Assembly: GCA_016124895.1 (NCBI GenBank)
Contig: WGMU01000058.1
Span: forward strand, 1-64,000
DNA from: a bacterium
GTDB taxonomy: Bacteria > Planctomycetota > Planctomycetia > Planctomycetales > Planctomycetaceae
Length of the DNA: 64,000 nt
Reading direction: 5' to 3'
Shown: piece by piece, positions 32,629-44,032 of the stretch
Layout of the letters: every line of letters begins with the position of its first letter
Numbering within the stretch: position 1 is the stretch's first letter
Translations under genes and position numbers: made by a program
The notes under the pieces: model-generated
Databases searched by the model: none
What the model was told of the DNA's origin: nothing
Seen by the model: only the letters and a program-made list of their open reading frames with translations

Positions 32629-34623
32629 TCACTCAGGTCGCAGCTTCGGTCCTTTCAGACCTGACGAGTGGTTCGCGAATGCGACCGTTGATCGTTGTGG
32701 TGCTCGCGCGCGGCGTCCTGCGATTGCCGGTGGTGGCGCCGTTTCTCCGGAGTCGATCCTCTGAATGCCCGCATCCGACAGGAATTCGATCAACATTGTG
32801 CCAACCGGTGAACCGAGCCCCGTGCAGGCGTTCCACCCAGATGCCGGATCACTCTGGGCTCTGACACTGTAAAAGGGAATGTCTGCGTGGCTGACGCAGT
32901 TATCACCCGACATGGCCTGTCGAAACGCATTCGTTCCAATCGCCTGGTAAAGCCGGGCGTTGACGTTGCTCAGACTGGCTCCGCACTTCTGATTGATGCA
33001 GGCCAGCAGCGACGCCCACAGGGGGGCCGCGGCGCTTGTGCCGCCTCCTGCAGTGGCGACACCACCGAGAATGATTCGATACCCCTTTGCCAGGTCGGCC
33101 GACGCGGCAACATCCGGTACGCCGCGGCCTCGAAAGTCAGGGTTGCTGTGGGCCGATGGACTCAGCCAGGTGCCGGAGCCCTTCAGATCGCCCGGACTCG
33201 GTACATTCGCGTCCGACTGCCACTCAGGCTGATTGAAGTGACCACTGATCCCGCCGGTTGAGGCGAGGTGAAACCCGTTGATATGTTCGTTCCAGGCGAC
33301 CTCGCCGTCTGTCTGGACATTCTGATCCGTCAGAATGGTTCCGCCACAGGCCAGCACGTAGGGGCTTGAGGCGGGAAAACAGACGTTGGCACAGGTTGCT
33401 GGACTGGCGGGATTGGGAGGCAGGCCGACAGAACCAAAGTCACCGGACGCGCAGCAGACTGTAATCCCGCTGGCGTGCAGTTGTTTGAGTGGGTCATTCA
33501 GTGAGTTCAGGTCACCGGCTTTGTACCCGGATTCGGTCTTCCCCCAACTGTCGGTGATGACTGTCGGCCGCGTGATGTCCTGCCCGCCAGCGCTGTTGCG
33601 GTCTCCCGCCAACGCGTACAGGGCGAGCCGAAATTCCTGGGTTCCGCCGCCGACAAAGTAAACGTCAATCTCCGCTTCGGGAGCCAGTGCGGCCACCAGC
33701 TCAATGTCCATCGTGACTTCGAGCATGTGTGACCATTCGCCGAAGTCACTGCCGTACTTCATGATGGCGGCTTCGCCATCCTGGTTGACGGCTTCGGTGA
33801 TCTCGGCCAGCTTCTGCCGGTCCATCTGCTGATTCCAGCCTCCTGACAGACCGATCCAGTTGATTTTCGCCCTCGCAGAGAGTCCGAGTTCCTTGAGAAA
33901 CCGGTTGATGTCTTCCAGATAAAAGCCGCCGCCGAATTCGAGAATGGCAATGCGCTGACCGGCTCCCTTGCTGTCCTCGGGAAACTGGTAGTAGTCCGCG
34001 ACGTCCAGCGGGTTCATCAGAGGCAACCCGCTCGCAGTACCCGTCCCCACCATCGCGTCCAGTTGAGCAGCGAAATTCCGGTCGTAGCACGGGATATCAT
34101 CCAGACCCAGCACGGCTTCGACCTTGTCCACCAGTTCGTCGGGCAGATGAATGGCCTCATCATGCGCACGGTAGGAACCGCGATCGTGCTCGTACTGCGC
34201 CAGTTGAACTTTGAATGCCGCGGAGAGGTCGGCTGCCGTTCCTTCCAGTACGACATCGTGGCGAAGGTTCGAGACGTCCACGACATCAAGGTGGTGCTCC
34301 TCCGCAAACATCCGGACCAGTTCGATATCGGCGTCGGCCGGTGCGTAGAGATTCGCCAGTTCGGAGAGCGACGTGTCCCTACTGACGAAACTGCAGGCTG
34401 CTGCACCGGCCCTCTCATCTTCCACGCCACCGACACCCCGGGATTCCGGATGCAGAACCAGTGTGACGCGGAAGCGTTCTGCCGGAACCGATGCAGGCAT
34501 CATCATGCCGGGAAGCGCTCTTGCCATCAGCCTCGACGTTGTGTCGTGGCCCTTCGACAGATCAGCAACTTTGCGGGCACCGCGAAGATGTACGGGGCGA
34601 CTGTCAGGAACTTCTCGTGTCAT
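32629..34623 (-). CDS. S53 (sedolisin/kumamolisin-like) peptidase
   Basis: 664 residues with a pro-domain (about 48-170, starts FRVTLVLHPES) and a catalytic domain (about 205-600). The Ser-Glu-Asp triad is visible: LEVTMDIELVAALAPEA (Glu and Asp), SWG, the oxyanion Asp in CCASGDFG, and the nucleophile in GGGTSAAAPLWASLL. No signal peptide is evident, unusual for sedolisins, which are normally secreted and acid-active; the first about 45 residues are Arg/Ala-rich. Last gene of a minus-strand set (37307 to 32629) with 1-15 base gaps to the preceding two. In the RiPP setting it could remove the leader, but that is inference. Confidence 0.85.
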   Translation of the reverse strand: MTREVPDSRPVHLRGARKVADLSKGHDTTSRLMARALPGMMMPASVPAERFRVTLVLHPESRGVGGVEDERAGAAACSFVSRDTSLSELANLYAPADADIELVRMFAEEHHLDVVDVSNLRHDVVLEGTAADLSAAFKVQLAQYEHDRGSYRAHDEAIHLPDELVDKVEAVLGLDDIPCYDRNFAAQLDAMVGTGTASGLPLMNPLDVADYYQFPEDSKGAGQRIAILEFGGGFYLEDINRFLKELGLSARAKINWIGLSGGWNQQMDRQKLAEITEAVNQDGEAAIMKYGSDFGEWSHMLEVTMDIELVAALAPEAEIDVYFVGGGTQEFRLALYALAGDRNSAGGQDITRPTVITDSWGKTESGYKAGDLNSLNDPLKQLHASGITVCCASGDFGSVGLPPNPASPATCANVCFPASSPYVLACGGTILTDQNVQTDGEVAWNEHINGFHLASTGGISGHFNQPEWQSDANVPSPGDLKGSGTWLSPSAHSNPDFRGRGVPDVAASADLAKGYRIILGGVATAGGGTSAAAPLWASLLACINQKCGASLSNVNARLYQAIGTNAFRQAMSGDNCVSHADIPFYSVRAQSDPASGWNACTGLGSPVGTMLIEFLSDAGIQRIDSGETAPPPAIAGRRARAPQRSTVAFANHSSGLKGPKLRPE

Positions 34624-34624
34624 C

Positions 34625-35542
34625 TCACTGCTGCCTTGAAACAGATTTCCGCGGATCGGATAAGTTCGCCGATGCTACCCGGCCGGGAGCCAGTGGAGAC
34701 AGAAATTCTCGAACAACCGCGTTAAAACGCGGAGCAGCCGTCATGATCAGAAAGTGATTTCCACCGTCGCCGCGTTCAATCACTTCCAGCCGGGCGTTGG
34801 GCATCTGCTGGCTCATCCAGTGGTGCGACTGCCACGGGATGACGCTGTCACGCCCGGCGACGACGAGCGCGGGAAGAGTCACCGTGGGGATGACGTCGCG
34901 CCAGTCCCGCTCACACAGATCCAGAAACAGTGTTGCCGCCGATCTCCGCGGCAGCTTCAGGTTCTCGGCGATGATCCATTCCCGATCGGCGTCGGAAACG
35001 CAGCCGTCGAGCGATCTGGTCAGCATGGTCCGAGTGAATGCGTCGCCGTCGGGACCAGTCAGAGCGGCCGTCATCTGGTGAACCGTTCGCAATTCCATCA
35101 CGGCACCCGCGGTTTCGCACTCAAGAGGTGACCAGCCAGGTCGACGCATCATGCACGGAGGTGATTCGACGATGATCAGCTTCTGCACTCGGTCACTGGC
35201 GAACTGTTGCCAGTAACTCCAGATCACGGCGCCACCCATCGAATGGCCCAGCAGAGTGACGTCCGAAAGGTTCCACGTTTCCAGAGTGTCGTGCAGGTCG
35301 CGGGCGAACTGCGGAATGCTGAAACCGGATTCGACATTGGATGACTCGCCGTGACCGCGCATGTTCAAAGCGATACACCGGAAGTCCCGGCTGAGGTCCT
35401 CAAGCTGAAAGCGAAACTCGCTGGCTGACTGCGACCAGCCGGGAATCATCACCAGAGTCGGCCCGGAACCCGCCTGCAGAAAGTGGAGTCTGGCTCCGTC
35501 GCGAGTCGTCACGTATCCGGAAGTGGCTGGCCCGATGCTCAC
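34625..35542 (-). CDS. Alpha/beta hydrolase
   Basis: 305 residues. The fold is shown by PTLVMIPGWSQSASEFRFQL, IALNMRGHGESS, the nucleophile elbow LLGHSMGGAVIWSY, VVAGRDSVIPW and the catalytic His in DGGNHFL. No signal peptide. It is one base from the S53 gene and 14 bases from the methyltransferase gene, so the three are probably co-transcribed. Substrate unknown: ester or peptide hydrolysis, or acyl transfer, are all possible for the fold. A second paralog lies at 36501-37307. Confidence 0.85.
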   Translation of the reverse strand: MSIGPATSGYVTTRDGARLHFLQAGSGPTLVMIPGWSQSASEFRFQLEDLSRDFRCIALNMRGHGESSNVESGFSIPQFARDLHDTLETWNLSDVTLLGHSMGGAVIWSYWQQFASDRVQKLIIVESPPCMMRRPGWSPLECETAGAVMELRTVHQMTAALTGPDGDAFTRTMLTRSLDGCVSDADREWIIAENLKLPRRSAATLFLDLCERDWRDVIPTVTLPALVVAGRDSVIPWQSHHWMSQQMPNARLEVIERGDGGNHFLIMTAAPRFNAVVREFLSPLAPGRVASANLSDPRKSVSRQQ

Positions 35543-35556
35543 AGCATTCCTCCGGG

Positions 35557-36414
35557 TTACTCCGTGGCGGGGGCAGACTGTCTTGTCGAAATCGAGAAGT
35601 AATACGGTGGAGTCGCAGGAGCGAATAATCGCGGAGCGGTCCCCCAGCGACCGAAGCTGGCGTCCGGATCACCGATCTGCACCGCGCTGCCCTGCCATCC
35701 GAAGTTCGCCAGAAACACGACCGGATCCTTGACTCCCGAATGCAGCGGGCAGCCCATCTCCTGCCACATCCTGAGGAATGGCTGAGCCATTTCAGAGTCG
35801 AAGTACTCGACCGAGGCCATGTCAGCACCGAGCCAGCTTCCCGCACTGGCGACTTCTCCCAGAGCCGCAAACAGTTCCGGGATGGCCGGCTCAGGCAGGT
35901 AAGGCAGCACGCCCTCCATGATGAATGCCGCAGGGCGGGTTCGATCAAATCCGGCCTTCTGCAATGGAGTCACCCAGTCGAATTCCAGATCAGCGGCGAC
36001 CATCTGCCGTGAGCAACGGGGGGTGACGTCCAGATCCCTGAGCACCGACTCCTTGTGCTCACAGACGCACGGCTGATCGACTTCGTAAAGTTGAATTGCG
36101 TTTGGACAGGGAAGCCGGAAAGCGCGAGTGTCCATTCCGGCTCCCAGCAGAACAATCTGGTCGATCTCCAGTTCGTTGACCGCTCGCAGCAGTGCGTCGT
36201 CGTAGTAGCGGGTTCTTATGGAGATCCCCGTCGACGGTGTATGCAGCGAGTGGCCAGGCAGGCACGACTGCATTTTCTCGTACACCTCAAAGCCCTGCGG
36301 ACCAGCCAGCGCCTCGGCGAGTGGATCGTCAAACAGCCGTTTCGGTTGCTGTGTTTCCAGTGCGCGAGCGGCGGCCATGCACAGGGCAGTTGCCTCGACA
36401 GGGGGAAGTGCCAT
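35557..36414 (-). CDS. Leucine carboxyl methyltransferase-like SAM enzyme
   Basis: 285 residues of the LCMT/PPM-type class I methyltransferase family. Landmarks are RTRYYDDALLRAV, the SAM loop IVLLGAGMDTRAFRL, YEVDQP and the FIMEGVLPYLPE segment; the N-terminal KRLFDDPLAEALAG is also typical. Known relatives methylate carboxylates (for example the C-terminal Leu of phosphatase 2A) or hydroxyls of small molecules. In this cluster a carboxyl-methyl ester on the peptide C-terminus would fit, but this is inference. A 14-base gap separates it from the downstream hydrolase, 86 bases from the upstream hydrolase. Confidence 0.82.
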   Translation of the reverse strand: MALPPVEATALCMAAARALETQQPKRLFDDPLAEALAGPQGFEVYEKMQSCLPGHSLHTPSTGISIRTRYYDDALLRAVNELEIDQIVLLGAGMDTRAFRLPCPNAIQLYEVDQPCVCEHKESVLRDLDVTPRCSRQMVAADLEFDWVTPLQKAGFDRTRPAAFIMEGVLPYLPEPAIPELFAALGEVASAGSWLGADMASVEYFDSEMAQPFLRMWQEMGCPLHSGVKDPVVFLANFGWQGSAVQIGDPDASFGRWGTAPRLFAPATPPYYFSISTRQSAPATE

Positions 36415-36500
36415 CGTTGTCTCGTCTGGTGAGATGTGACTGACAGGTATGGTTCGTATGCAGAAGAACTTTCCGAAATCAGCCGCACTCCTGAGAAGAT

Positions 36501-37307
36501 TCAGAAAACGGCAGCTTCCAGGAACTTAAGTACCGTCCGATTGAACGCAGCCGGTTGCTCGAAGTACGCCGAATGTCCGGCACCAGGAATCTCGGCGTAG
36601 GTTGCACCGCTGATACGTTTGGCGATTCCGCGAGCGAGAACCGGCGGCACGAGGACATCATGACTGCCAGTCAGCACCAGTGTAGGGATTCCGGACTTCA
36701 CAATCGCATCTGGTTCAATCTGAAAGCTTCCGAGGCCAGGCAGCAAATCAGGAAACGCCACGGAATTCAAGGCACTGATCTGATTGAGCAGAAACCAACG
36801 TGCGGGATAGCTCGCCTGGAATTCCGGCGTGGCGGCAAGATCGGACCGGGCGATGGGCATGTTACCGCTGTCAGGGCCGGCGTTCTTCAGGTTCAAGCCT
36901 GCATAAAGCTGCGATGGTGACGGCACATTGCCAGCCGGGCGAAACCCGGAGGAGGATGCCGAAAGGACGAGTGCCGCGACGCGTTCGGGATACTCGGTGG
37001 CCAGTCCGGCAACCGTAACGCCGCCCATCGACTGGCCGATCAGTGCGGCACGTTCGATCTCAAGCCAGTCCAGCAGTCCCAGCAGATCGGCGATCAGATC
37101 GGCAGGAGCTGGCGCAGCGGCTCGACATTGCGTCAGCCCGAAGCCGCGATGATCGAACGTAATGACCTGGTAAGACTCAGCGAATTCCGGAACCTGCTGC
37201 CACCAGCTCAAGTGATTTCCGCCAGCGCCGTGAGCAAACACAACCGGTGGACCCGCTCCGGAAACTTCGTAGTAAAGACGAAGGCCGTTCAGATCGGCGT
37301 AAGGCAT
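36501..37307 (-). CDS. Alpha/beta hydrolase, first gene of the divergent operon
   Basis: 268 residues. FAHGAGGNHLSWWQQVPEF, ITFDHRGFG, the nucleophile elbow LIGQSMGGVTVAGLA, LVLTGSHDVLVPP and IPGAGHSAYFE give a complete Ser-Asp-His set. No signal peptide. Transcribed away from the peptide precursor with 190 bases between the two start codons, so the promoters face each other. In fungal borosin pathways a peptidase of the same broad fold family (prolyl oligopeptidase) cuts and cyclises the core; whether this small protein does something comparable is open. Confidence 0.85.
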   Translation of the reverse strand: MPYADLNGLRLYYEVSGAGPPVVFAHGAGGNHLSWWQQVPEFAESYQVITFDHRGFGLTQCRAAAPAPADLIADLLGLLDWLEIERAALIGQSMGGVTVAGLATEYPERVAALVLSASSSGFRPAGNVPSPSQLYAGLNLKNAGPDSGNMPIARSDLAATPEFQASYPARWFLLNQISALNSVAFPDLLPGLGSFQIEPDAIVKSGIPTLVLTGSHDVLVPPVLARGIAKRISGATYAEIPGAGHSAYFEQPAAFNRTVLKFLEAAVF

Positions 37308-37497
37308 GACTTGCCCCTGAGGTCATCTGTTCAAAACACCCTTCGATACATTCGGTTCTGCAATTCCGTGGCAATACTTGCATAACTGGAGCAGAACTGG
37401 TTCACTGAATTCGTACCCGGCGACCGCCGAGTATCGCGATGGGCGGCATTCTGACCGACATGCCAACAGTATTACCAGTTACAGGAAGGCAGACGCG
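37308..37497. promoter_or_regulatory. Divergent promoter region of the RiPP cluster
   Basis: 190 bases between the start codons of the hydrolase (minus) and the precursor (plus). GTTCTGC (37355-37361) and GCAGAAC (37391-37397) are a spaced inverted repeat in the middle, a candidate operator. A shorter one, GGCAT/ATGCC (37445-37464), lies in the precursor leader. AGGAAGG (37482-37488) is the precursor ribosome site. No convincing -35/-10 pair is assigned. Confidence 0.4.
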
Positions 37498-37707
37498 ATG
37501 GACCAGAAACTCAAGGACTTCATCAATGCCACTGGCAGCGATCACACGAAGCTGGGGTCGTTCATCAACGATCCGGAGAAGCATCTGGATGATGCCGGGA
37601 TTACCTGCCCGGACGAACGGCACCTCGTCAAAGTGACCATTGCCGCTGGCGTGTCCAGTAAACTTGCAGGGGACGACGGCCAGCAGTCCTTCATTATCGC
37701 GTACTGA
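37498..37707 (+). CDS. Putative RiPP precursor peptide, split-borosin type
   Basis: 69 residues from ATG 37498, with AGGAAGG 9 bases upstream; the longer open frame upstream is non-coding in character. Residues 1-46 form a helical, charged leader (starts MDQKLKDFINATGSDHTKLG) with NDPE at 24-27 and AGIT at 33-36. This spacing recalls the borosin-binding domain of separate (split) borosin precursors, as far as I remember SonA. The C-terminus runs GVSSKLAGDDGQQSFIIAY, with a hydrophilic linker and a hydrophobic end (SFIIAY, 64-69) like an N-methylated core. It directly precedes YcaO, TfuA and a borosin-type methyltransferase. A strong hairpin separates it from ycaO. Also conceivable: a small regulator, but the context argues against that. 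Confidence 0.82.
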   Translation: MDQKLKDFINATGSDHTKLGSFINDPEKHLDDAGITCPDERHLVKVTIAAGVSSKLAGDDGQQSFIIAY

Positions 37708-37741: not shown

Positions 37742-37780
37742 ATGCCGTCTCGTGACGCTCACGAGGCGGCATTTCTGTTT
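37742..37780 (+). terminator. 14-bp attenuator/terminator between precursor and ycaO
   Basis: ATGCCGTCTCGTGA (37742-37755), loop CGC, TCACGAGGCGGCAT (37759-37772), with one T-G wobble, then TTTCTGTTT. It lies 35 bases past the precursor stop and 31 bases before the ycaO start. Such leaky terminators let RiPP operons make far more precursor than enzyme. Confidence 0.85.
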
Positions 37781-37810: not shown

Positions 37811-39058
37811 ATGACGACAGACCTCTGGCGCGAGATCAGTCAGCTCAGCGGCTCACCGCGTTATCGGTTTGGAACGATGCGTTCGACATCTCCGCGACGG
37901 ACACTCAACCGGCTGCGTCCGCTGCTGCCACTCGCCGGAATCACGCGACTCGCTCGAGTGACGGATCTGGATACCATTGGAATTCCCGTTTATCAGGCGG
38001 TACGTCCCAATTCGCACAACCTGTCGGTCTCTCAGGGAAAAGGGCTGACGCGAGCGCAGGCCCGAATCTCGGCGGTGATGGAAGCTGTCGAGAACTTTCA
38101 CGCAGAGAACATCGAGCTGCCGACGATCCGGGCTTCCATCCGCGAGATCCGGGATCGACTGCATTACGACCCGTATCAACTGGCGACAACCAGTACGCAC
38201 CTGGAAGCCGTTTATCGCGATTCGAGCTACGACGCTCTGGCACCACCCATCGGCGAGAGCCACTTTCTGAGCGACGATCTGCAACTCGACTGGTGGCCGG
38301 CGACGAATCTGGTCACTGGTGAAGAATCGTGGGTGCCGCGTCAGCTCTGCGATCTGAATTTCAGTATCCGCGAGGAGTTCGACGTCTTTCCATTTCGAGC
38401 GACCTCGAACGGACTGGCCAGTGGAAACGCGGTCGTGGAGGCACTGATTCATGGACTCTGCGAGGTCATCGAACGCGATTCGTTCGTCAGAAATGCCGGG
38501 TTCCGGGCCAACCCGGAACGTTACATCCGGCTGAGCAGTGTCGACTCAGCAGTGCCAGCCGGCGTCATTCGCAGGCTGGAGCAGGCCGGGCTCTCTCCAC
38601 TGATTCTCGACGTGACCGGCGAGATGGGAGTTCCGTGCTTTGACGTCGAACTTCGGCAGGTCGATCGTCCGACGTTTCAAGGGTTCGGCTGCCATCCGTT
38701 TCGTGATACCGCGCTGGTGAGAGCTTTAACAGAAGCGGCGCAGTCGCGACTGGCACATATTTCGGGCACACGAGACGATCTGTTTCGGCATACCTATCAG
38801 CCACCGGAAGTGCTCTCCGACATTGACCTGCCATTCGATGAGGTCGCTCCACAGACGCCCGATCCGCAGGGGAACTATTCAGACTGCTGTCATCTGCCGG
38901 GCACGGACTGGAAGGAGATGCTGTTGGAACTGGTGAGCCGCATCGAACGCTTTACCGGGACGGCCCCGCTGGCCATCGATCTGCGTCGCGAAGAATTCGG
39001 CATTCCGGTGACGATGGTGATTGCGCCGGGTCTGCTCAGTCCGGGGACGCGACGATGA
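37811..39058 (+). CDS. YcaO-domain peptide-backbone modifying enzyme
   Basis: 415 residues. YcaO enzymes phosphorylate an amide oxygen with ATP to form azolines, thioamides or amidines. Landmarks: YRFGTMRSTSP (18-28), GITRLARVTDLDTIGIPVYQ (43-62), the ATP loop VSQGKG (73-78), Glu91/Glu94 in MEAVE, SNGLASG (199-205) and CEVIERD (217-223). The C-terminus lacks the proline-rich PxPxP ending seen in azoline-forming cyclodehydratases, and no E1-like or F-protein partner or dehydrogenase is nearby. With TfuA adjacent, thioamidation is the best guess. ATG 37811 fits the domain start although no clear ribosome site is seen. Its stop overlaps the tfuA start (ATGA). Confidence 0.92.
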   Translation: MTTDLWREISQLSGSPRYRFGTMRSTSPRRTLNRLRPLLPLAGITRLARVTDLDTIGIPVYQAVRPNSHNLSVSQGKGLTRAQARISAVMEAVENFHAENIELPTIRASIREIRDRLHYDPYQLATTSTHLEAVYRDSSYDALAPPIGESHFLSDDLQLDWWPATNLVTGEESWVPRQLCDLNFSIREEFDVFPFRATSNGLASGNAVVEALIHGLCEVIERDSFVRNAGFRANPERYIRLSSVDSAVPAGVIRRLEQAGLSPLILDVTGEMGVPCFDVELRQVDRPTFQGFGCHPFRDTALVRALTEAAQSRLAHISGTRDDLFRHTYQPPEVLSDIDLPFDEVAPQTPDPQGNYSDCCHLPGTDWKEMLLELVSRIERFTGTAPLAIDLRREEFGIPVTMVIAPGLLSPGTRR

Positions 39059-40581
39059 GTGTCATTTCCGAGCGACCGCGGATGCGTTTTTATGCCGGGC
39101 CATCGATCCGCTGGAACGAGATCGAAGAGCTGTGCTCAGGACTGGATGCCGTCGTCGAGATCGCTCCGCCCATCGAACAGGGAGACCTGCTGCGTGACCT
39201 CAGTCGCCTGCCCGACGTGATCGGCATCATTGACGGGTACTTCTATCAGGTGCCGTCGGTGCTGCATAAAGAGATTCTGCTGGCGCTCGAAGCAGGCTCG
39301 CGTGTGCTGGGAGCCGCCAGTCTCGGAGCATTGCGCGCTGCCGAACTTGACGTCTTCGGCATGGAGGGCGTGGGCCGGATTTATGAGTGGTTCGCGGACG
39401 GTTCGATTGATGGTGACGACGAGGTTGCCGTGCAGCATGGTCCTGGAGAAATCGGATTCCGCCCGCTGACTGTCCCGCTGGTCAACGTGCGACACGCGAT
39501 TCAGCTGGCGACGGCGCACAGCCTCATCAGCCGGGATGATGGCCGGTCGATTCTCTCAGCGGCTCAGGACATCCATTTTTCCAGACGCACCTGGGGGCGT
39601 CTGTTCGACCACGATCGATTGCGGGCAATTGACGGCGGCGTTCCATTTCGTGAGTTCATTGCTCAGCGGGCTCCGGATCTGAAACATGAGGATGCGCGGA
39701 CACTGGTCGAAACAGTTGTTAAACGCGTCCGCCACCGTCGTGAATGGCCGGACCGGCTGGACTGCCGAGTCAAGTCGTCGAAGTACACCTACCTGATGCG
39801 GCATCAATATGCCGGAAGCTGGTCGGGATCGCGGCATCTCCCGGACAGTCAGGTGGTGTCATTTCAGAAAGTGCTCGATCCGTCGTTTCCAGACATTGTC
39901 GAGTGCGTCGTCCGACGGATTGTCGCCTGTGACGAAGCGGCCCATCGCGGACTGGTTGCGGAATCGCCTGAGGTTCTTGAACGGAAATTCCGCGAGGAAA
40001 CCAACCGGCTGGACAACAGCCACTTTCGCGACTGGCTGAACTGTCAGGGACTGTCGCGCGACGAACTGGTGGCCTGGCTGCGGGCCTGCGATCTCGAACG
40101 CCAGATCGAGGCTGCCGTTTCAGTCTCAGAGTCGCGGGGGCCGCACGCTGTCATTCTTCAGGCCGTTGCCGCGCGCCGCGGACTCGCCGAAACCGATCTA
40201 CCAGCACTGACGCTGTCGCGGCAGACGATCGCGTTTGATCTGCCGCTGATTCGTGAGCTGAAGTGTACGGGGCGTTTTTCGGAAGCGCGTCACGTTGCTG
40301 CTGGCATTCTTGATTCCGTCGATGCCGCGTTCGCTGGAAACCATCGTCTGCGGGCGATCATGGAAGCGCTCGGCGATCTGGTGCGGACGTCTTTCGACGA
40401 ATGGGCGGCGGCCCTGTGGGGCATCCCGACCGAGGCCCTGCCGGCTGAACTCGTTCGTCGTGCGATTCACAGCGGTGCGGAATTCATTGATATCGTGCGT
40501 CTCTGCAAGCTGCATCAGGAACACGGCAGCGGATGCTCGGACTCGTCGCCAGTCGCAACCGTTGACGGGAGCGGGATATGA
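39055..40581 (+). CDS. TfuA-like YcaO partner with a long C-terminal extension
   Basis: 508 residues. Residues about 10-170 are a TfuA domain: IIDGYFYQVPSVLHKEI (58-74), VLGAASLGALRAAEL (84-98), FGMEGVGRIYEWFADG (101-116) and DDEVAVQH (121-128). TfuA proteins work with YcaO in backbone thioamidation, where they are thought to help deliver sulfur. The remaining about 320 residues are helical, Arg/Glu-rich and unlike a plain TfuA protein of 200-250 residues; they may bind the precursor leader or the methyltransferase. No cysteine-rich sulfur site stands out. Both ends overlap neighbouring genes by four bases, so YcaO, TfuA and the methyltransferase are translationally linked. Confidence 0.9.
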   Translation: MSVISERPRMRFYAGPSIRWNEIEELCSGLDAVVEIAPPIEQGDLLRDLSRLPDVIGIIDGYFYQVPSVLHKEILLALEAGSRVLGAASLGALRAAELDVFGMEGVGRIYEWFADGSIDGDDEVAVQHGPGEIGFRPLTVPLVNVRHAIQLATAHSLISRDDGRSILSAAQDIHFSRRTWGRLFDHDRLRAIDGGVPFREFIAQRAPDLKHEDARTLVETVVKRVRHRREWPDRLDCRVKSSKYTYLMRHQYAGSWSGSRHLPDSQVVSFQKVLDPSFPDIVECVVRRIVACDEAAHRGLVAESPEVLERKFREETNRLDNSHFRDWLNCQGLSRDELVAWLRACDLERQIEAAVSVSESRGPHAVILQAVAARRGLAETDLPALTLSRQTIAFDLPLIRELKCTGRFSEARHVAAGILDSVDAAFAGNHRLRAIMEALGDLVRTSFDEWAAALWGIPTEALPAELVRRAIHSGAEFIDIVRLCKLHQEHGSGCSDSSPVATVDGSGI

Positions 40582-41411
40582 CCGAATCAGCCGCCAGAGT
40601 CGGTTCTCTGTCAGTCGTGGGTACAGGGATCCGGACGGCAGGACAGTTGACGACAGAAACCATCGAACGCATTCGACGTGCGGACATCGTGCTGTTTCTG
40701 GGCAGCGACCCGGCGCTCGAATCGATCCTGCAGACGCTGAACAGCAATCTGGAGTCGCTGGCAAGTGTGTATTCTCCAGGCGGCAACCGCGGCGACAGTA
40801 TTCGGGCACTCGCCGAGCGCATTGTCGCTCCGGTCCGACGCGGGCTGACGACCTGTGCCGCTCTGATGGGGCATCCCGGTGTGTTCTGCGTCGCTGGTCA
40901 CAACGCCGTACAGATCGCTCGACAAGAAGGCTTCATCGCCCGGATGCTGCCGGCCGTTTCCGCCGAGGACTGTCTGTTTGCGGACCTGGGAGTTGATCCA
41001 TCGACGGCCGGGTGTCAGAGCTTCGAGGCCATGCAGTTGCTCCTCAAGAACTACCGCATCGATCCTCGCTGTCATCTGATCCTGTGGCAGATTGGTGTGA
41101 TGGGCGATCCGATCTTTCGACCGCAGGGCTACGATCTGTCGGCGCTGCCATTGCTGATCGAACGGCTGTCAGCGGAATACTCGGCGGACCACGTCGTGAC
41201 TGTGTACAGCGCGACGCTGCAGGAAGCCGGATTCCCGTCGATTCGGCAGACGCCACTCGGCGGGCTCAGGAAATCACTGCTGAGTTCTGCATCGACGCTT
41301 TATGTGCCGCCGCTCGCCCCTGCCGAACCGGATACCGAGGTCGTCGCTCGACTGCGAGCCGTCGGCTTTCCCGTCGAACTTTATCTGCGGTCGTTTGACC
41401 ATTTCCGATAA
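40578..41411 (+). CDS. Borosin-type peptide N-methyltransferase (tetrapyrrole-methylase fold)
   Basis: 277 residues. The N-terminal VVGTGIRTAGQLTTETIE (13-30), GHPGVF (98-103) and above all ARMLPAVSAEDCLFADL (121-137) with DPSTAGC (140-146) match, from memory, the same blocks in the fungal borosin enzyme OphMA far better than in cobalamin-pathway methylases. Such enzymes use SAM to N-methylate successive backbone amides at the C-terminus of their own or a separate peptide. Here the enzyme has no fused core, so it would act in trans as in SonM/SonA. Tyr65 and Arg71 align with active-site residues, but the position of a catalytic-region Tyr (Y76 in OphMA numbering, as I recall) is Ile75. Confidence 0.9.
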   Translation: MTESAARVGSLSVVGTGIRTAGQLTTETIERIRRADIVLFLGSDPALESILQTLNSNLESLASVYSPGGNRGDSIRALAERIVAPVRRGLTTCAALMGHPGVFCVAGHNAVQIARQEGFIARMLPAVSAEDCLFADLGVDPSTAGCQSFEAMQLLLKNYRIDPRCHLILWQIGVMGDPIFRPQGYDLSALPLLIERLSAEYSADHVVTVYSATLQEAGFPSIRQTPLGGLRKSLLSSASTLYVPPLAPAEPDTEVVARLRAVGFPVELYLRSFDHFR

Positions 41412-41536: not shown

Positions 41537-44032
41537 TCAGTAAACCAGTTCGGTGCCGAAGTAGAAGTTCCGGCCAGGCTGATAAACGCCGCGGCCGGTC
41601 CGCAGATCGAGATGCTCGCGGTAGAACTTGTCCGCGAGATTCTCGACACCAAAGATGATCGAAAGATTGTCTGTTGGACGGAACGCCGTGCGGATATCAA
41701 AGGTCGCGAAGCCGGCGGTTGCCTGCTCATTGAGCGTGCGGGCGACCCGATTCTGGCTGCTGACAAGACGGGTGACGAATTCCGCCGACCAGCGATTTGA
41801 GACAGGGTCGTGCAGCCGCAGGCCGAGGCGGGATTCGAGGGGCGCGATACCGGGCAGCGCTTCGCTGTTCGCCGTAACGACTGTGCCTGTGGGGCCGACG
41901 TCGACTCCGCGCGGCAGACTCGGATCGTAGGTGACCGTGCTGTTCGCGAAGTCGAAGGTGTGCTGTCCGCCCTTCGAACGGGTGTGGTCCTGACCGCGAA
42001 CATAGCTCAGCGTCGCGAAGCCGGTCAGCCAGTCGTTCATGTCGTATTCGCCAAACATCTCGCCGCCGGTCAGCGTCGCCAGTTGAGTGTTCGTCGGACG
42101 CAGGACCAGTGAATTGAAGCCAAAGAACGTTTCCTGATTGAGGATGTTTTCATACGTGACGAAGTCGTTGACCCAGGAGTGAAAACCATTCGCCCCCAGG
42201 CGGAGGTTTCCGTAATCGGCTCGCAGACCGAGGTCGAGCTGCGTGCTGCGGGCAGGCTTCAGATCAGGATTTCCGACGACGGCATTCAGGCCGTTCTGCA
42301 GTACCGCCAGGAAGCTGCCGAAGGCGTACATTTCCGTAATGGTCGGCGGACGCTGCGAGTGACCGGCTCCGAATGTCAGCGTGACTTCGTCCGAGAGGTC
42401 GTACTCGGCTGTCGCGAACAGTGCCCACATCTGGTAACTGCGATTGAGACTCGAAACGGCCAGCGTATGCAGCAGCGAGTCTCTGGTCACCGGCATCTGG
42501 CCCATGGGATTGAAGTCATTCCCCGGCGGGATCGAATCGACGTCGGCCGTCTGCCAGTCAACGCGGGCACCAGTACGGAAGCGGAAGGGCTCATTGACCG
42601 GAGAATTCAACTCGATGAACAGACCGGGATTGCTGGTGTGTCCGTCCGGCACTCCCGAGAAGATCGGCAGTGGAAGACCAAAGCCGGGCGAAAGGCTGAA
42701 CTCGTTGATCTCCTGCTTGAGATACCTCAGGTCACTGCCGGCCCGGAGATTCAGATCGTCCTGATCGCCCCAGGTCAAAGCGGACGTGTAGCCGGTTGAA
42801 GACGTATCGGCGGCGGTGTAGACGTATTCAACGAAGGCATCGAGCTGCGGGACCTGGTTACGTTTCGACGGCGAATTGCCGTTGCCCGAGAAACGCGTCC
42901 GGTTGTACCAGCCCTCAATTTCAAAGCGGTCGAACGCCGACTGATCGACGATCTCGTACTTCAGTTCGTAACCATCCGTGACCAGATAGTCGATATCAAA
43001 GAACGCTCCAGGGAACTGCACGCCGGTCTGGTCCAGTCGCAGGTAACTGAACTCGATGCGGCTGTCGTCGGTGGGGTCATAGCCAAGTGCGACGTCCCAG
43101 TCCCGTGAATTCAGACTCGACGGAAGCTTCTGTCCGTCGCCTGCGGTGTAATCATTCGCCGTTCGATGACCGTATCCGACGCGGTAGCCCCAGTTGTCAT
43201 CGCCACCCGTGAGCATCTGACGTCCGTAGAACGCTTCGCCATTCGTCTGATATTCCAGACTGGTGCTGCCGTGCGTTTCCTGACCGTCGGAGTACCGCGG
43301 GCTCTGCTGGAGCTGAAAGTCAACAAAGTTGAGGCCTGGTCCGTGTTCGACACTGTACGGCCCCTTGGTCACGATGACGTCGCTGATAATCCGCGAATCG
43401 ATCTTGCTGAGCATCGTGTCCATGTCGTCGCGGGCTGGATACCAGTACGAACCGGAGGCTTTCAGATTGCCGAGCCCCAGGCCGCGCACGCGCGTGTCCG
43501 TCACGATGGGAGATCGGCGTTGCGATGCGACACCGACGGCAGCGTTCGACTTGAAGAGCAGGCTGCCGACATCCGATGTCGCGCGACCTTGTGACTCATT
43601 TCCCTGAACGACGATCGATCCGGGAGCCCGCGCACGCCGCAGGCGGGAACTGGCCAGCAGACTCGACTGCAGATTGTTGTCACGAAAGATCCGTTCCGCC
43701 AGGAGCTGCGACTGTTCCGGTTCCGGAGCCTGCGGTGTGAGCATCGACGGTTCCGGAAGCAGAGGCTGAGCCACATCCTGGCTGACCAGTCGCACGTAAC
43801 CGACGTCCGCGGCATTGGGATCCACCCAGGGGGTCGTCGACTGAAAGACCGCGGTCACGTCGCCAAAGGTGAGTCCTTCGTCTTCCGGCGAGTCGAGTTC
43901 AATCATGATGACGGCCGGAGGCGCCGGCTCCGCGTCCGTCAGTGGATCATCTGCACTCGCAGCGGCGCTGGACAGCAGCAGCAGAGCGGCCGACAGAGCG
44001 GTCGACGATTTCCATCGAAGCGGATGGAACAT
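41537..44032 (-). CDS. TonB-dependent outer-membrane receptor
   Basis: 831 residues with a signal peptide (TALSAALLLLSSAAASAD). A plug domain (about 130-255) contains VRGLGLGN and SVEHGPG; the rest is a beta-barrel ending in the classical GRNFYFGTELVY with a C-terminal aromatic. VENLADKFYREHLD near the end is typical of the last strands. About 100 residues separate the signal peptide from the plug, longer than usual; no clear TonB box is picked out. Such receptors import siderophores, other metal chelates, cobalamin or peptides. It is convergent with the methyltransferase gene, 125 bases away, so uptake of the cluster product or its metal complex is possible but unproven. Confidence 0.85.
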   Translation of the reverse strand: MFHPLRWKSSTALSAALLLLSSAAASADDPLTDAEPAPPAVIMIELDSPEDEGLTFGDVTAVFQSTTPWVDPNAADVGYVRLVSQDVAQPLLPEPSMLTPQAPEPEQSQLLAERIFRDNNLQSSLLASSRLRRARAPGSIVVQGNESQGRATSDVGSLLFKSNAAVGVASQRRSPIVTDTRVRGLGLGNLKASGSYWYPARDDMDTMLSKIDSRIISDVIVTKGPYSVEHGPGLNFVDFQLQQSPRYSDGQETHGSTSLEYQTNGEAFYGRQMLTGGDDNWGYRVGYGHRTANDYTAGDGQKLPSSLNSRDWDVALGYDPTDDSRIEFSYLRLDQTGVQFPGAFFDIDYLVTDGYELKYEIVDQSAFDRFEIEGWYNRTRFSGNGNSPSKRNQVPQLDAFVEYVYTAADTSSTGYTSALTWGDQDDLNLRAGSDLRYLKQEINEFSLSPGFGLPLPIFSGVPDGHTSNPGLFIELNSPVNEPFRFRTGARVDWQTADVDSIPPGNDFNPMGQMPVTRDSLLHTLAVSSLNRSYQMWALFATAEYDLSDEVTLTFGAGHSQRPPTITEMYAFGSFLAVLQNGLNAVVGNPDLKPARSTQLDLGLRADYGNLRLGANGFHSWVNDFVTYENILNQETFFGFNSLVLRPTNTQLATLTGGEMFGEYDMNDWLTGFATLSYVRGQDHTRSKGGQHTFDFANSTVTYDPSLPRGVDVGPTGTVVTANSEALPGIAPLESRLGLRLHDPVSNRWSAEFVTRLVSSQNRVARTLNEQATAGFATFDIRTAFRPTDNLSIIFGVENLADKFYREHLDLRTGRGVYQPGRNFYFGTELVY

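Follow-up and report, generated by a model that had tools for sequence, protein, structure and literature searches.

We found that a 64,000-nucleotide stretch of a planctomycete genome (hereafter, the window) contains a 69-residue open reading frame (ORF) that, judging from its sequence relationships, very probably encodes the precursor of a split borosin. This peptide is a previously undescribed member of the split-borosin precursors. Its gene is followed by genes for a YcaO protein, a TfuA protein, and a borosin methyltransferase that lacks two otherwise conserved active-site tyrosines (Table 1). We propose that these genes encode a hybrid RiPP pathway in which YcaO-TfuA would thioamidate, and the methyltransferase would methylate, one core of the 69-residue precursor; we consider this reading to be likely, although well short of certain. 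Nature has few ways to edit the peptide bond itself; N-methylation and thioamidation of the backbone are two of them, and they alter stability and membrane passage. This system would lend itself to tests of combining the two edits, as it would offer a single 69-residue substrate whose docking leader is well understood, with both sets of enzymes encoded in the same 4-kb operon.

Table 1. Features of the putative borosin-thioamide operon and of its surroundings, in coordinates of the window
Feature	Position	Strand	Details or basis
Divergent block: S53 pro-kumamolisin-type peptidase, two alpha/beta-hydrolases, LCM-type methyltransferase	32629-37307	-	
GGAAGG ribosome-binding-like site, 8-nt spacer, and ATG start	37477..37500	+	direct sequence reading
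Precursor ORF, 69 amino acids	37498..37707	+	ATG to TGA; protein MDQKLKDFINATGSDHTKLGSFINDPEKHLDDAGITCPDERHLVKVTIAAGVSSKLAGDDGQQSFIIAY
Precursor layout: borosin-binding-domain-type leader (residues ~1-56), linker, hydrophobic core (~61-69, GQQSFIIAY)			profile matches, AlphaFold2 model, SonA tail alignment
Strong hairpin, attenuator/terminator-like, then TTTCTGTTTC	37743..37771	+	13-pair stem, 3-base loop
YcaO, thioamidation-type	37811..39058	+	PF02624, E = 3e-62
TfuA, 508 amino acids	39055..40581	+	PF07812, E = 4e-42
Split-borosin-type SAM methyltransferase	40578..41411	+	TP_methylase fold; PF00590, E = 8e-18
TonB-dependent receptor, convergent with the operon	41537-44032	-	

A sequence-only reading had proposed this ORF as a precursor with a split-borosin-like leader and a hydrophobic C terminus. 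The ORF is real and lies where it had been placed, and the elements that had been picked out in the peptide (NDPE, an AGIT block, a Gly/Asp/Gln linker, and an SFIIAY end) are all there. The good ribosome site is also present, with GGAAGG 8 nt upstream of the ATG, and the gene does sit ahead of its putative modifying enzymes, which are encoded next on the same strand (37811-41411). There is no second copy of the peptide in the 8.1-Mb genome. Used alone as a query, the peptide had no match in Pfam, PHROGs, or the PDB, and just a sub-threshold match to IniB, because it is too short and too divergent.

Profiles were more informative. A scan for relatives of the window methyltransferase, with each species represented by a single genome, gave at least 527 that were confirmed, and the 79 listed loci come from the best 80 of these. 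When we seeded a profile with the window peptide, it picked up leader-like ORFs at 73 of these 79 loci (best 80 of at least 527): 54 are within 300 bp of the methyltransferase gene, all are within 4 kb, and 72 of the 73 are on the methyltransferase's strand. When the window was left out of the profile and the 714 six-frame ORFs of the window were searched, the precursor was found with E = 1.4e-6, versus 0.07 for the runner-up. To exclude circularity, we also ran the search in reverse, starting from SonA (the precursor of the split borosin of Shewanella oneidensis) and using loci without the window. After the first round, this profile matched the precursor with E = 5e-5 to 3e-4, as the sole convincing match among the 714 ORFs. 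The split-borosin-like leader is thus supported from the side of the window and from the side of SonA.

A comparison with known borosin-binding domains, which had been suggested as a check, gave the same answer: a profile of 57 leaders matched SonA (7ltc_B) with E = 2e-14 and the binding domains of the fungal proteins dbOphM and OphMA with E = 2e-5 to 9e-5 (2e-5 for dbOphM). The peptide might instead be a small helical protein similar to LigA or IniB that has another role and is not a precursor. Indeed, Pfam's LigA model matches 35 of the 57 family members, and the NCBIfam model for the N terminus of IniB (NF038175) matches 38 of the 57, with a best E value of 2e-9. The borosin-binding domain is itself related to dioxygenase caps (PMC8429565), which can be counted in favor of this alternative; the leader profile's match to LigA is consistent with that published relation. 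However, the leader profile fits SonA far better than it fits LigA (E = 3e-4), the family is associated with borosin methyltransferases in genomes, and the window peptide has a SonA-like tail. We consider a LigA-like or IniB-like role to be highly improbable. As a side observation, the IniB model's matches to borosin leaders hint at a borosin-binding-like domain in IniB-type proteins.

The split-borosin reading also accounts for how the family varies. Among precursors, the leader should be conserved and the end variable, and in the alignment the mean information is 1.88 bits in leader columns 1-52 and 0.85 bits in tail columns 57-69. Even close relatives within Polyangium share a common leader and have differing ends (NCPVLMMF, NCPMLAMF, NCPVLAVLF, and NCPMLIQ), which is the pattern expected of a precursor. 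Conservation along the whole length, or homologs that occur without the enzymes, would have pointed to another role; instead, conservation does not extend over the full length of the homologs, and these occur together with borosin methyltransferases. The leader profile is present in four borosin loci from plasmids and in one from a viral contig, and it is absent from ten scanned YcaO-TfuA loci that lack a borosin methyltransferase (L107-L116, of which L108 and L110 are places already covered as L094 and L095). This implies that the leader follows the methyltransferase. The leader had been described as helical, and the AlphaFold2 model of the precursor (mean pLDDT 71) bears this out, with four helices (residues 3-14, 16-24, 26-33, and 38-56) and then an unstructured tail; the leader fold of split borosins is a bundle of five helices. 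A Foldseek search with this model of modest confidence found no match in the PDB; three chains were realigned and SonA was not among them, and the realignments to an FF domain and to Prospero (Z = 3.2 and 2.8) are too low to be evidence.

The comparison with SonA also locates the likely core. Both peptides have a helical borosin-binding leader, a linker, and a short hydrophobic core, and their tails share the pattern GD..(Y/Q)QS(Y/F)(L/I)(V/I). The tail of the window peptide (LAGDDGQQSFII, residues 56-67) pairs without gaps with that of SonA (LSGDSSYQSYLV, residues 53-64) across 12 residues, and none of 2,000 shuffles gave as good a pairing. SonA has 71 residues and is methylated at L63 and I65 (PMC8429565). 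In the ungapped register, SonA's L63 corresponds to I66 of the window peptide and I65 to A68; aligning the whole domain by profile shifts this by one residue near the end and points to F65 and I67 instead. Because its tail aligns without gaps to the methylated tail of SonA, the core of the window peptide is probably about the last 9 residues, which is around five residues shorter than in SonA. This agrees with the earlier estimate of the last 6-18 residues and narrows it to residues ~61-69. Residues 57-69 are outside of the predicted helices. The earlier suggestion that GVSSKLAGDDG might hold a thioamidation site found no support: this segment lies partly in the final predicted helix (38-56) and partly in the linker, and no finding favors it. 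We also considered a likeness at FIAY between the window's core and the tail from another borosin locus (L031), but its score of 22 was equalled or beaten by unrelated tails.

Both enzymes encoded directly behind the precursor are of the thioamidation type, as judged by family profiles and conserved motifs. The YcaO, which is the only one in the 8.1-Mb genome, has the MJ1094 YcaO as its nearest solved structure, and the NGLASGN and RALTEAAQSR motifs are conserved. TfuA matches the solved TfuA 6xp8 (E = 3e-36), with conserved motifs; beyond its N-terminal TfuA domain, it has a C-terminal region of ~280 amino acids without a Pfam match. The YcaO matches TIGR03266, which describes the YcaO for thioamidation of a glycine in McrA, with E = 1e-52, and TfuA matches NF033432, in both cases under the model's cut-off. 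Missing the cut-offs of these McrA-specific NCBI equivalog models is expected for enzymes with a substrate other than McrA. In having adjoining and overlapping genes as well as conserved motifs, the pair resembles the YcaO-TfuA pairs that form the thioglycine of McrA or that act on thioamidated RiPPs (PMC8120280). Unlike at the YcaO-TfuA loci that we scanned, the precursor in the window has a borosin-binding leader and the operon includes a borosin methyltransferase. A 2021 survey of thioamidated RiPPs makes no mention of borosins in its text (PMC8120280).

The four genes are in the order precursor, YcaO, TfuA, and methyltransferase, all on the plus strand, with the hairpin behind the precursor gene and the first enzyme gene 104 bp behind it. 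YcaO overlaps TfuA, and TfuA overlaps the methyltransferase, each by ATGA. Because YcaO and TfuA lie between the precursor and the methyltransferase, with these overlaps on both sides of TfuA, the genes look like one operon. The hairpin is unusually stable (fold z = -5.0; 0 of 200 shuffles were as stable), although it was not among the calls of a simple terminator scan. The palindrome at its core occurs just once in the genome, unlike a dispersed repeat. Plausibly, the hairpin is an attenuator that favors the precursor over the enzymes.

This arrangement bears on whether the genes work together. It might be that an ordinary split borosin happens to be next to an unrelated YcaO-TfuA pair that has its own, unlinked substrate. 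In other genomes the borosin and YcaO-TfuA modules are separate; for example, Verrucomicrobium AV114 has a borosin locus and a YcaO-TfuA locus (with a different precursor-like ORF) on two contigs. But here YcaO and TfuA are encoded between the precursor and the methyltransferase, with an ATGA overlap at either end of TfuA, and we saw no other precursor-like ORF in the operon. We consider a chance association to be quite unlikely. Since the 69-residue peptide is the only precursor in the operon, we infer that YcaO-TfuA acts on it as well, so that both enzyme sets would modify the same peptide.

The combination is unusual among the loci searched. TfuA is present in none of the 79 listed borosin methyltransferase loci (best 80 of at least 527 relatives), and YcaO is present in one of these 79 (best 80 of at least 527), in an unrelated case from Symploca (L064). 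We rejected that locus as another instance of the system: its YcaO is 24.6% identical, the YcaO gene precedes the methyltransferase gene at a distance of ~4.4 kb with several genes between, and the one TfuA in that genome is on a different contig. Neither YcaO nor TfuA was found at the borosin loci that we inspected on plasmids, at two loci on viral contigs, or at one further verrucomicrobial locus. Searches that started from TfuA in planctomycete, verrucomicrobial, and cyanobacterial genomes gave no borosin hybrid, and searches for borosins on plasmids and viral contigs gave no YcaO-TfuA hybrid. Across 392 sampled planctomycete genomes, three have a borosin-type methyltransferase and three have TfuA, and only the window's genome has both. 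Because the loci come from the best 80 of at least 527 relatives, there could be hybrids that are rarer or more distant. And with one genome as the only example, comparison does not prove that YcaO-TfuA uses the 69-residue peptide. Base composition gives no support for recent horizontal transfer, as the GC content of the operon (0.602) matches that of the window (0.603). In a literature search that did not extend to the main borosin surveys, we found no paper that joins borosins and TfuA, and just a few passing mentions of borosins together with YcaO or thioamides. Provisionally, then, a borosin-thioamide operon with an altered methyltransferase appears to be new among the loci searched.

The methyltransferase belongs to the OphMA/SonM family of borosin methyltransferases and is encoded separately from its precursor. 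In phmmer searches it matched dbOphM with E = 1e-55 and SonM with E = 7e-50. Its AlphaFold2 model (pLDDT 86) aligned to OphA and SonM with VIA-align Z scores of 32.9 and 30.8, versus 18.8 for the next family, siroheme synthase. The closest known system is SonM-SonA, a type IV split borosin with a separate methyltransferase and a precursor of ~70 amino acids (PMC8429565); the window methyltransferase is ~39% identical to SonM and has the same fold, but in the window YcaO and TfuA come between the precursor and methyltransferase genes. The fungal OphMA and dbOphMA have homologous methyltransferase and binding domains; unlike in the window, these are fused.

In an alignment of 83 sequences, the window methyltransferase keeps 44 of 47 near-invariant positions, and the three changes are Y75I, M78L, and Y97M. 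I75 is at the position of Y71 in SonM and Y76 in OphA, where all 82 other aligned methyltransferases have tyrosine. M97 is at the position of Y93 in SonM and Y98 in OphA, which is tyrosine in 81 of the 82. Ten further methyltransferases from plasmids, viral contigs, and a verrucomicrobium all keep the first tyrosine, and two of them lack the second; among all members other than the window's, we saw the second replaced by glutamate (in one copy from Bradyrhizobium), proline (in a copy from a Serratia plasmid), or glutamine (in L007). The equivalents of Y58 and R67 of SonM are kept in the window, as Y65 and R71. Having all four of these conserved residues is not a formal requirement for belonging to the family. 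In SonM, Y71 hydrogen-bonds the i-1 carbonyl, which is the carbonyl of the methylated amide; the Y71F substitution lowers catalytic efficiency by ~100-fold, and Y93F mainly raises the KM for SAM (PMC8429565). Given the cost of losing Y71 in SonM, the window methyltransferase may be slow, altered, or dead.

From the sequences, the lost tyrosines suggest either methylation that is adapted to thioamides or an enzyme that is weakened or serves just as a scaffold. It is possible, although we would not bet on it, that thioamidation comes first and that the methyltransferase then acts on the thioamide, whose more acidic N-H or soft sulfur would make the tyrosines unnecessary. Two of the three changes remove tyrosines with contacts to the amide oxygen and to the cofactor, and the only methyltransferase without the first tyrosine is also the only one beside YcaO-TfuA, so the loss of the Y71 contact suggests a thioamide substrate. 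The retained equivalents of Y58 and R67 fit with this as well. On the other hand, this is a single case, the Y93 equivalent is also missing in some other members, the long branch of the window methyltransferase could reflect relaxed selection, and the role given to thioamide acidity comes from chemical reasoning. We therefore put forward just tentatively, as a rather speculative idea, that the enzyme was re-tuned to methylate the nitrogen or sulfur of a thioamide on the shared core, which would explain the loss of both tyrosines. If true, this would be new peptide-backbone chemistry.

Alternatively, the methyltransferase may have lost catalysis and become a scaffold: it would bind the leader and offer the core to YcaO-TfuA, and the product would be thioamidated only. 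The missing tyrosine, whose replacement by phenylalanine is so costly in SonM, is what would be expected, and the enzyme is on a long branch (1.47, unplaced, and the longest among the bacterial ones apart from L007) while retaining the borosin methyltransferase fold. However, it keeps the other near-invariant positions, including the equivalents of Y58 and R67, whereas a scaffold without activity should have drifted at more sites; its ORF is also intact and overlaps tfuA. We view a pure scaffold as doubtful. The long branch itself fits a thioamide-adapted enzyme as well as a weakened or scaffold-only one. Nature has here already removed the equivalent of SonM Y71, which offers a ready experiment on amide activation by borosin methyltransferases.

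Returning to the hybrid pathway that we favor, we infer its chemistry, sites, and order as follows. The precursor would be produced in excess, with the hairpin probably keeping the expression of the enzymes below that of the precursor. The helical leader (residues 1 to ~56) would dock on the methyltransferase from the end of the operon, as SonA does on SonM, and the docked leader would thread the C-terminal core (approximately GQQSFIIAY, 61-69) into the active site. YcaO, with ATP, and TfuA would put sulfur in place of at least one backbone oxygen in the core. Before or after thioamidation, the methyltransferase would add methyl groups to the backbone. I66 and/or A68 are the likeliest sites; with a register error of one residue, the sites would be F65/I67. 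Finally, a protease from outside of the operon would release the core. We can only guess that the peptidase or the hydrolases of the divergent block are maturation genes that include the leader protease. In 29 related genomes, nothing matches the hydrolase at 36501-37307 closely. Receptors similar to the TonB-dependent receptor downstream of the operon are present in 2 of the 29 relatives, and none is found within 6 kb in the other borosin loci. We rejected the idea that this receptor indicates a chalkophore because its match to copper receptors (164 bits) is far under the cut-off (472 bits).

Our searches also turned up other unusual loci. In Verrucomicrobium AV114, the YcaO-TfuA pair (L094, 7670-10518) is preceded by a small ORF (MAESEEES...GIAVVDFDGQY) that has no borosin leader and is possibly a thioamide precursor; the borosin locus of this strain (L031) is on a different contig, and when the contig ends were compared, nothing indicated that the modules are joined. 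In Aquisphaera insulae, two borosin methyltransferases ~10 kb apart each follow a long precursor (L008, 5077-5925, and L012, 5289-5864). The precursor in L008 has near-identical repeats (GWGLPPRGIPVTYHYMGGSPASIPIADPA), which suggests a multi-core borosin. Two tandem split-borosin precursors are ahead of one methyltransferase in L066 (5287-5930). Another planctomycete methyltransferase (L006, 1288-2292, which is the same as L014, 5782-6783) has a leader-type domain fused at its N terminus, and no separate core was identified; a fusion of a leader domain and a borosin methyltransferase is also encoded by an IMG/VR contig that is classed as viral (L125, 4434-5795). Split-borosin pairs are found in archaea as well, in a metagenome-assembled genome from Thermoplasmata (L033, 3967-5160) and on a Haloarcula plasmid (L105, 4665-5810), where the pair adjoins a prolyl oligopeptidase.
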